Positions 2,374 through 59,120 of a stretch of 64,000 nucleotides of DNA are shown here, one piece after another. The notes beneath the pieces are model-generated. The model saw only the letters and a list, made by a program, of their open reading frames with translations, made no database searches and was not told where the DNA came from. A program made the translations under genes and the position numbers. Source of the stretch: Hyperoplus lanceolatus (lineage: Eukaryota > Chordata > Actinopteri > Uranoscopiformes > Ammodytidae); contig CM049408.1 of assembly GCA_026929865.2 (NCBI GenBank), forward strand, positions 25,185,501 to 25,249,500. The letters are read 5' to 3'. The first letter of the stretch is position 1. Each line of letters opens with the position of its first letter.

Positions 2374-20425
<18,052 letters not shown>

Positions 20426-20739: not shown

Positions 20740-21566
20740 TTAAAGCTCTTCCATATTATGCACTTTGCTGTCAATTTTATATTTCTAAGTAGTCCCTAAT
20801 ACTTATTTTTTTAAATGTTTGCTGAAAAACCCGTTCAGATCATTTATTGTAGCAAGCCTCTATACCCTGATTTTCCTCTAGCCTCAGGATGACCTATATT
20901 GGTGTCTGCAGCCTGCGATCTGGCTGGCCCCTCCCTCCTCTCTGCCGGGCCCTCCCACCGTCTCTGCCGTGCCTACATGATACTAGAGAGACACTGCGTG
21001 ACTCGAACAGTGTTTTTGTTCAATAAAGTTCATTTAAAAAAAAAAAAAGCAAACACAGTGTTTACCCGGAGCGAAGCCGTACTTTGAACAGTTTGACATG
21101 ACCTGACATGATTAAAACCAGTGAAAACAGTAGCTTCACAGTTTGATTTATACAGGCATAACTTCCCACCCTTTGTGGTGTTAAAAACAAGGCATTATTA
21201 GACTGCAATGGGAAAGCTAAGTTAGTGTAATAGGAGCAAACGCTGGGTGCTACTCCCGAAGGCCTACAGAGTACAATGGCCCCACAATGTCAGGAAAAGA
21301 GACCACGACTGAAAGACAATGTTTTGAATGATTGCACATGGTAGATCAGTTCATCAAGTGTACACTCTATTTGACTTATTCCGCCTTATTCTTTGTGTCA
21401 TTTTTCCACAATGCTTGTTTAGGACTTTTTGATATTGAGGCTAAACTGCAGAAAATAAGGTGATTTAGGTTTTTTTTTTTAAAGGCTAATACAACTGTCC
21501 CAGATTACAACGTCACCTGAATATTTATTTTGTCACAAATAACTAATAACTAAACGAAATAATAGT

Positions 21567-21870
21567 TGTGGCATATCTCTTCTTGGTAGCATATCTAAAA
21601 ATGTTTTCTTCTGCTGTTGTAGAAAACATCTCAGGGATTTCAGAAATGTATAATGTGTTGATATTATGTGTTCGATAGATATCGCAATAGGTTGCTGAAG
21701 TCAAAATTGCGAAAAACGTCCCAGATTACCCAAATTCACCCTACAGCTAAACACACACATGAGCTGTGTCTCATTTAAGGGGCCGCAGCCTGCGAAGGCT
21801 GCATTTGAAGACCGATTGCGTCATAGCGGCGCGTCAAGGCTTGTCCCATTTTGAAGGCTCCTTCATATGC
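21567..21870. repeat. Left arm of a 304-bp inverted repeat upstream of PYGL
   Basis: Matches 22977-23280 in inverse orientation at high identity, from TGTGGCATATCTCTTCTTGG to CCTTCATATGC. The arm joins about 195 bp of ordinary-looking sequence to the first 109 bp of the TIR element at 21762, so it is not a simple transposon end. Confidence 0.85.
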
Positions 21871-22327
21871 GGCCGAGAAATGCAGCCTTCGTTTCACGGT
21901 TTTGAAGGGTCCAACAGATGGATCCTTCGCGGCCCAACATATCCCAAGATTCATTGGTTATTTTTCAGAGATGGCATAAGATAAAATAAAAAATAACAAA
22001 ACAGCAACGTGTTGCTCCATCTTCTTAACTTTTATCTTCCTTTCTTTTTTTCTTGTCTTTTCTTTTGTTTTTCTTTTCGTCTGGTAGGCAACTTCTTTTT
22101 CTTTTTTCCTCCGTTGACAAGGCTGTCTCCTTTGGCAGCAATCAGGGTTGCTACTTGCTAGGCAGCACAGGAGCGGCGAGTCGTCGCACAAGGTAACGGC
22201 TTGTTACGCAAACCTGCGAAGACCGTCTGATTTAACACCGCTCGTTCGGCCTTCACGGGCTATGGCCTTCATAGACTGCGTCGACCGCATCTTTATAAGG
22301 ATGCAGCCCCTTAAATGAGACACAGCT
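21762..22327. mobile_element. 566-bp non-autonomous TIR element
   Basis: Begins AGCTGTGTCTCATTTAAGGG and ends with its complement (CCCTTAAATGAGACACAGCT). GC-rich interior words such as GCGGCGCGTCAAGGCTTGTC near the ends. I see no convincing target duplication. A third, inverted copy of its left end lies at 22977-23085. Confidence 0.7.
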
Positions 22328-22425
22328 ACAGACGCAACAGATATGAAGCAATGAATGTTTTGTGCAAGCTTAGCTTGGAACACATCTCTTTTATTTACAC
22401 TTCTAAGTTGTATCTTATTGTTACT

Positions 22426-22979
22426 GACAGAATGGATTATCAAAAATGTAGCAATTTTGGTGTGGAGATAATGATCTTGTGTTGCAAAAATATCAGGCAT
22501 CATTGGACATCTGAAATATATTTTGCATAGTGCTGCTGCATATCTTGCTTGATATTTGAATTTAAATGTAACTCTGCATAAGAAGAAACTAAATCATTTG
22601 AAATAGTTTGAAATCTTTTTGCAACTTGGTGCCAGTGTGTTGCATTAGTTCCTTCTTTTCTTGCAAACTTGTGTTGTTGTTGTGTTGAAACCTAAAAGGA
22701 AATGCAGAAACTATTAAAAGGTTGTTTCTCAACACTCACAGTCTTTTAAGTTAAAGTCGTTGGGTGCCCGGGCGGACCACAGTCTCATGGTGTTCACTGT
22801 GTTGTTCATGTAGCCGGGGATGGGCGTGTCGTAAGGCATCGCCAAAACCACCTGAGAGGAAGGAGCGTGAGAAACCAGTAAGTCACATCGGTTCAGTTAA
22901 CATCTGAAATCAACTGAGACACACAGGGAAATGCTGGCGTAACAAAAGAAACATGGTCATAATGTAGTACCCAGGAGCA
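22426..22979 (-). pseudogene. Duplicated PYGL segment carrying exon 6
   Basis: Three blocks copied in direct orientation from PYGL: 22426-22541 from 13809-13925 (intron 7), 22542-22960 from 14121-14536 (intron 6, exon 6, part of intron 5) and 22962-22979 from 14774-14791 (intron 5). Exon 7 is skipped by the first internal deletion. The exon copy is 22740-22851 with one visible base change (GTTCACAG to GTTCACTG on plus) and keeps acceptor CTCAG and donor GTGAG. It lies upstream of the PYGL start, so it is not a PYGL exon. Confidence 0.92.
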
Positions 22980-23280
22980 TATGAAGGAGCCTTCGAAATG
23001 GGACAAGCCTTGACGCGCCGCTATGACGCAATCGGTCTTCAAATGCAGCCTTCGCAGGCTGCGGCCCCTTAAATGAGACACAGCTCATGTGTGTGTTTAG
23101 CTGTAGGGTGAATTTGGGTAATCTGGGACGTTTTTCGCAATTTTGACTTCAGCAACCTATTGCGATATCTATCGAACACATAATATCAACACATTATACA
23201 TTTCTGAAATCCCTGAGATGTTTTCTACAACACCAGAAGAATTTCTTTTTAGATATGATACCAAGAAGAGATATGCCACA
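22977..23280. repeat. Right arm of the inverted repeat
   Basis: Inverted copy of 21567-21870. Joined to the PYGL-derived block through a shared GCA. It ends at GCCACA, next to a second copy of 22370-22425. Confidence 0.85.
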
Positions 23281-23281
23281 T

Positions 23282-23337
23282 TTAGCTTGGAACAAATCTC
23301 TTTTATTTACACTTCTAAGTTGTATCTTATTGTTACT
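23282..23337 (+). repeat. 56-bp direct repeat closing the rearrangement
   Basis: Repeats 22370-22425 (TTAGCTTGGAACAAATCTCT and onward) with one mismatch. The two copies bound the 912-bp inserted stretch. Confidence 0.88.

Positions 23338-26920: not shown

Positions 26921-59120
<32,200 letters not shown>

Follow-up and report, generated by a model that had tools for sequence, protein, structure and literature searches.

FoSTeS/MMBIR rearrangements, as outlined by Hastings, Ira and Lupski (2009, PMC2621351), are characterised by discontinuous duplicated pieces in both orientations, by joints with short or no microhomology, by nearby inverted repeats and by serial template switches. A related account has been given for Pack-TIRs, in which, according to Tan et al. 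(2021, PMC8277862), single-copy cases arise by gap filling inside the element and multicopy cases by switching followed by transposition. The captured length in their criterion is 80-120% of that of the parent. The locus described here lies in a window of 64,000 nucleotides (the whole stretch of DNA that was analysed) from Hyperoplus lanceolatus. It contains an insert at 22426-23337, which is a 912-base patchwork of nearby sequence from the same chromosome, including one exon of PYGL.

The insert resembles the FoSTeS/MMBIR cases summarised in PMC2621351 in having discontinuous pieces templated elsewhere, with intact sources and both orientations, and in lying close to repeats and potential secondary structure, since a terminal-inverted-repeat (TIR) element, element B, ends 42 bp from position 22370. 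Unlike those cases, it is a fossil of about 0.9 kb for which the mechanism must be deduced, and its microhomology, read strictly, is not above chance. The OTC exonic duplication with inversion, as presented in PMC6292170, likewise has a copied exon, one inverted piece, one microhomology joint and one joint with a small non-templated insertion. That rearrangement, however, is larger, comprises exons 1-6, arose de novo and causes disease, whereas a single PYGL exon was copied here, to a place outside the gene. Class 2 templated sequence insertions (PMC5110952), MMBIR templated insertions (PMC8421209) and complex insertions (PMC5120786) are likewise patches copied into a site where a break or fork is presumed. 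The PYGL insert differs from all three in consisting of several patches, all local and ordered, plus an inverted one.

Pack-TIRs and their FoSTeST model (PMC8277862) share with this locus a single-copy gene piece between opposed ends of one TIR family, a parent nearby (<15 kb) and template switching as the proposed origin. Here, in contrast, the insertion lies beside element B and not inside it, and a new inverted copy supplies the second end. ODIRA, as sketched in PMC10766183, also generates an inverted segment by a switch between the leading and lagging template strands at a fork; it concerns inverted amplifications in yeast, whereas the inverted piece here is 304 bp long and lies inside an insertion.

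Composition and joints of the insert

All coordinates are positions in the window, which contains no N bases, and the genome searched comprised 806.7 Mb in 527 contigs. PYGL and TRIM9 both lie on the minus strand; the ATG of PYGL is at 20423-20425, and the stop codon of TRIM9 at 26921-26923. From the PYGL ATG the insert is 2.0 kb upstream, and from the TRIM9 stop it is 3.6 kb downstream. These positions agree with the preliminary description, which had placed the exon copy between the TRIM9 3' end and the PYGL promoter on the strand of both genes. We take the two genes to be PYGL and TRIM9, and the domain and PDB matches agree with these names: the best PDB match of the parent PYGL exon 6 was liver glycogen phosphorylase (1.3e-18; muscle form 3e-17), and the exons assigned to TRIM9 gave B-box and RING matches over the Pfam cut-offs and a PRY match slightly under. 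PYGL and TRIM9 are neighbours in other vertebrates. A literature search for the two genes together returned no title or abstract opening on the present arrangement.

Block-by-block alignment to the sources recovered every block that had been claimed, in the claimed order and orientation. From left to right, the native sequence 22370-22425 is followed by three pieces of PYGL, an inverted arm and a repeat of 22370-22425, after which native sequence resumes. The first piece, P1 (22426-22542), is a direct copy of the PYGL intron after exon 7, with its source at 13809-13926 (112 of 118 columns identical, four change events). The second, P2 (22542-22960), is a direct copy of 14121-14536 that includes exon 6 (412/419 identical). 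An odd A at 22961 on the plus strand separates P2 from P3 (22962-22979), an exact direct copy (18/18) of 18 nt of PYGL intron at 14774-14791. The inverted arm occupies 22977-23280 on the minus strand and is the reverse complement of 21567-21870 (297/304), with GCA common to the arm and P3. Inspection of the last joint showed an extra T at 23281 on the plus strand, followed at 23282-23337 by the second, direct copy of the native 56 bp that mark the insertion point. Aligned with its first copy at 22370-22425, it is identical at 55 of 56 positions. The genome search found this 56-bp sequence in two copies, both at the insert. In all there are six stretches and five joints, with three direct PYGL pieces, one inverted piece and one direct repeat; all sources lie within 9 kb on one chromosome, and the parents are intact.

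The parent stretch that supplied P1-P3 (13809-14791 on the plus strand, the gene being on the minus strand) is unbroken, and two parts of it, 13926-14120 and 14537-14773, are missing from the copy, as had been stated before. Exon reading of the first skipped stretch identified PYGL exon 7 (13963-14045), so that the copy lacks exon 7 and the parent did not gain it. A later transposon insertion in the parent was rejected as the cause of this gap for the same reason. Genome matches of 13926-14120 were itself and one exon at 84% on contig C23, which also carries the putative paralogue mentioned below. The second skipped stretch is intronic and has one genome match, which makes a later transposon insertion there unlikely; it has CAT at both borders, and a unique insertion would be conceivable.

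The four long blocks have E values of 5e-22 or lower, which excludes chance. The 18-nt block P3 is weaker when taken alone, since 7 of 300 random 18-mers from the window have an exact 18-nt match elsewhere (in this control the tested block was shifted one base to the left of P3 and scored 17). Its source is in order, on the same strand and 237 bp beyond the end of the P2 source.

At the joints, the GCA overlap described earlier was found again, while the single extra base of that description became two odd bases, the A at 22961 and the T at 23281. The A has an alternative reading, in which 3 bp (CAT) are common to both sides and one G>A change followed later. The overlaps at joints 1-5, to be compared with the microhomology of 2-5 bp looked for in insertions of the FoSTeS/MMBIR type, are 0, 1, 0, 3 and 0 bp by the strict reading and 0, 1, 3, 3 and 0 bp by the lenient one; joint 1 shows no overlap, and joint 5 shows none with an extra base. 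When joints were simulated at random, at least one joint of at least 3 bp occurred in 28% of the sets and at least two such joints in 3.4%, and a summed overlap of at least 7 bp was reached in 11%; offsets on the same diagonal slightly inflate two of the joints in this simulation. Microhomology, near chance by the strict reading, thus lends the case for template switching weak support, and it is the topology that carries it.

When the PYGL part of the insert was searched against the genome, all three candidates were scored and gave four matches, namely the query itself, both parental blocks and, on another contig, an exon at 81%. The last is taken, from its sequence, to be a diverged exon of a phosphorylase paralogue. 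No second copy of the PYGL mosaic was found among these three candidates.

The exon copy and divergence from the sources

Parent exon 6 was located at 14316-14427 on the minus strand by its PDB match and splice borders, and its 112-nt copy lies at 22740-22851 on the same strand. The copy gave a Pfam Phosphorylase match of 9.1e-10 for 22744-22851. It differs from the parent at one of 112 bases, as had been reported, and the change is synonymous in the PYGL frame. Acceptor and donor are both kept and identical to those of the parent, again in agreement with the earlier observation, and the adjoining intron bases show 0/20 differences on the donor side and 0/23 on the acceptor side. The splice signals are on the strand of both neighbouring genes. 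Splicing from the penultimate exon of TRIM9, which ends at 28058, to the acceptor side of the PYGL exon 6 copy at 22851 (its donor side being at 22740) is predicted from the sequence to join phase 0 to phase 0, and the 112-base exon would shift the frame of whatever follows. The exon copy is probably a silent, non-functional fossil.

Copies and sources differ by 14 change events in 908 aligned bases, or 1.5% (95% Poisson interval 0.8-2.6%), distributed as 4/117, 5/416, 0/18, 4/301 and 1/56 among P1, P2, P3, the inverted arm and the 56-bp repeat. The insert had been called recent; "recent" here denotes a divergence of about 1.5% and not a date. Divergence is higher in P1, with 4 events in 117 bp, than in the other blocks together, with 10 in 791, and this excess could hint at more than one step in the formation of the insert. 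Two clusters of differences were found, GGT/ATA at 22490-22492 and AACA/TTTC at 23242-23245, the latter within the inverted arm.

Some differences in the arm can be polarised with other copies of the two repeats that make up its source, repeat A and element B. At 21589 and 21614 all nine other A copies agree with the insert and not with the source. At 21852 the T of the source occurs in 0/12 B copies, and the C of the insert in 7/12. These three clearly polarised changes would thus appear to have fallen on the source after copying, unless the copied haplotype differed. That all three are on the source is odd, and not significant given so few events. The source of the second cluster (21602-21605) is ambiguous among the nine A copies. 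Both clusters were considered as signs of error-prone synthesis; for the one at 23242-23245 this found no support, since it is ambiguous and the polarised arm changes lie on the source. These differences are thereby removed as evidence of error-prone copying. As a separate observation, within the inverted pair 21567-21870 and 22977-23280 the repeat families resemble the insert more closely than they do its source.

Source and repeats of the inverted arm

The source of the inverted arm is not unique sequence. It consists of the right end of the interspersed repeat A, a short linking stretch and 109 bp from the start of element B. The right part of repeat A lies on the plus strand at 21260-21743 and supplies 177 nt of the arm; as judged from nine fetched copies, the repeat begins at 21260 or to the left of it and ends at about 21743. 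The genome search gave 42 matches from 40 scored candidates for repeat A, itself and the inverted arm included. Element B is a 566-bp TIR element on the plus strand at 21762-22327, uninterrupted, with TIRs at 21762-21802 and 22287-22327 that are 83% alike. It was compared with 12 fetched genome places, given by the 12 hits whose start coincides with the B breakpoint (one more short hit, the thirteenth, lay inside one of these places): nine of the 12 match end to end, one to 22273, and two over the first 150-170 bp. No consistent target-site duplication of B was found at the eight genomic copies scored, nor by eye in the window. The insert begins 98 bp to the right of B. The breakpoints of the arm, 21567 and 21870, are inside A and B and not at the ends of the repeats.

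Since both components are repeated in the genome, the arm might have been an independent insertion of A and B. This was ruled out by private bases and by the A/B junction. The bases at 21673, 21693 and 21732 are common to the source and the arm and occur in none of the nine other A copies. The search with the A/B junction (21690-21830) had 1170 candidates, and among the 40 that were scored only the source and the arm match it over its full length, being identical over 141 bp; the next longest match in that set covers positions 51-141 of the junction at 88%. The private bases and the whole junction show that the arm was copied locally, from the source next door, which upholds the earlier reading of the arm as an inverted copy of local sequence.

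B is predicted to fold strongly. With its flanks it gave -103.2 kcal/mol, compared with -74.8 (sd 4.2) in shuffled sequences (z -6.7, better than 20/20), and it ranked first of 92 equal windows of 631 nt across 12-30.6 kb, both raw and GC-corrected (z -3.3), the 631-nt interval around B having been placed to fit the element. With windows of 400 nt, the one starting at 21600, which holds the end of A and the left part of B, was the best of 91 (z -2.6), and those starting at 21800, 22000 and 22200 were unremarkable (z -0.5, -1.2 and -0.4). A replication stall at B is plausible; the link with the hairpin is positional and concerns a single case.

Other repeats were observed in and around PYGL. 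A 1.28-kb element at 15454-16732, whose inverted ends measure about 375 bp and are 94% alike, is flanked by the PYGL exons found at about 15 kb and 20 kb and presumably belongs to an intron; it is 663 bp from the donor stretch. At least 40 further copies match it at 97-99% identity over 1261 or more of its 1279 bp (40 of 1868 candidates were scored), and the number of such close copies indicates a young and abundant long-TIR element. At 4409-5889, in the low-coordinate part of the PYGL region, there is a Tc1/mariner-like element with inverted ends of 112 bp (98%) and an uninterrupted frame of 365 aa that matches DDE_3 and HTH_Tnp_Tc3_2. Apparent remains of a non-LTR retrotransposon occupy 8914-11530, with a reverse transcriptase match at 11102-11527 slightly under the Pfam cut-off (28.8 of 29.6 bits); a Pfam search of 8914-9675 gave no match. 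The retrotransposon area and the PYGL gene also have in common a segment of about 245 bp at 95% (9970-10217 and 16923-17163) and, in inverted orientation, a piece that measures about 150 bp and is 92% alike (10225-10377).

Origin of the mosaic

We consider it likely that the mosaic arose in one serial template-switching event of the FoSTeS/MMBIR type. The preliminary description had preferred template switching to transposition or simple duplication, and this preference is sustained by the three colinear donors, the single inverted piece, the intact state of the donors and the lack of a second copy of the PYGL mosaic among the three genome candidates scored. On this explanation, a germline replication or break-repair polymerase would have made one series of switches. 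Moving leftward on the lower strand, synthesis would have proceeded through 22425-22370 and halted 42 bp before element B, which is prone to form a hairpin. The polymerase may then have moved to the other template strand on the far side of B, where it copied from 21567 to 21870; GCA could next have served for the jump into PYGL at 14791. PYGL would have been copied over 14791-14774, then, after a short forward skip, over 14536-14121 and, after another, over 13926-13809, before the polymerase returned to 22425 and continued. Such a return would leave 56 bp copied twice. Movement rightward on the upper strand would involve the same steps reversed, and the sequence fits either direction.

The two gaps in the PYGL copy could also have formed in steps, if the continuous stretch 13809-14791 was copied together with the inverted arm and later suffered two deletions of about 195 and 237 bp. 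The colinear PYGL pieces in one orientation are what this course of events predicts, and the gap joints resemble those of ordinary deletions (1 bp of overlap at one; 0 bp with an A, or 3 bp, at the other). It would require, however, that two deletions of about 200 bp occurred within about 1 kb during a period that left 14 small events in 908 bp. Deletions near 200 bp are far rarer than small changes. We regard the stepwise course as unlikely. Somewhat more doubtful still is an end-joining patch, in which a staggered break at 22370-22425 was filled and sealed with loose or templated fragments, as in class 2 insertions. The 56-bp direct repeat that flanks the insert, the blunt joint 1, the extra base at joint 5 and perhaps that at joint 3 would fit such a patch. 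Against it, the fragments were copied and not excised from their sources, an 18-nt fragment is unlikely to be captured independently, and the common order and orientation of the three PYGL pieces would be expected in 1 of 24 cases by calculation.

Capture of the PYGL pieces by a mobile element (a Helitron, a TIR element or a retrotransposon) followed by insertion appears very improbable. An end of a TIR element is indeed present inside the insert, but the borders carry no element end, and none of the terminal-repeat, poly-A or target-site signatures of a mobile element was found there. Introns were kept, with no poly-A, and intron sequence copied on both sides of exon 6 rules out a retrocopy. 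The PYGL part was found at the insert, at the parent and as one diverged paralogue exon only (three of three candidates scored), and the breakpoints 21567 and 21870 fall inside repeats A and B. Least probable of all is an assembly artefact. The locus was judged from the assembly; the window is free of N, and the copy differs from its source in every block of at least 56 bp (the 14 events), as a chimera of identical reads would not.

The relation to Pack-TIRs deserves separate consideration. The stretch 21762-23085, which has no assigned strand, is bounded by two opposed B ends of 109 bp with one difference between them and encloses the PYGL exon 6 copy. Non-transposon sequence therefore lies between opposed ends of one TIR element, as in a Pack-TIR. 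B at 21762-22327 is uninterrupted, at variance with gap filling inside an element, and the captured PYGL sequence amounts to 554 of 983 parental bp (56%), which falls short of the Pack-TIR length criterion. Since B is intact, the captured length is 554/983 bp, no consistent target-site duplication was found at the eight B copies scored or in the window, and the search found the mosaic nowhere else, the locus was not classed as a Pack-TIR. With no further copy of the PYGL mosaic among the three candidates scored, there is also no sign that the B-bracketed unit has moved. A more speculative reading, to which we give little credence, is that the locus is an unmoved Pack-TIR precursor, in which fold-back copying at the TIR hairpin would have made the second opposed end beyond the captured PYGL exon and 21762-23085 would in principle be mobilisable as one unit by the machinery of element B.

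If the precursor reading were true, the locus would show the switching step postulated by the FoSTeST model and, in the inverted copying that produced a new end outside the element, a route distinct from gap filling and end bypass. Should the stretch between the B ends ever have moved, it would form a direct connection between errors of replication and the shuffling of exons by DNA transposons. Returning to serial template switching, the locus looks like a well-preserved fossil of a known mechanism and not like a new type of genetic system. It preserves almost in full a copying error of several steps, all of whose sources are still present within 9 kb, and it shows how an exon with intact splice sites can come to lie beside a gene without transposition.
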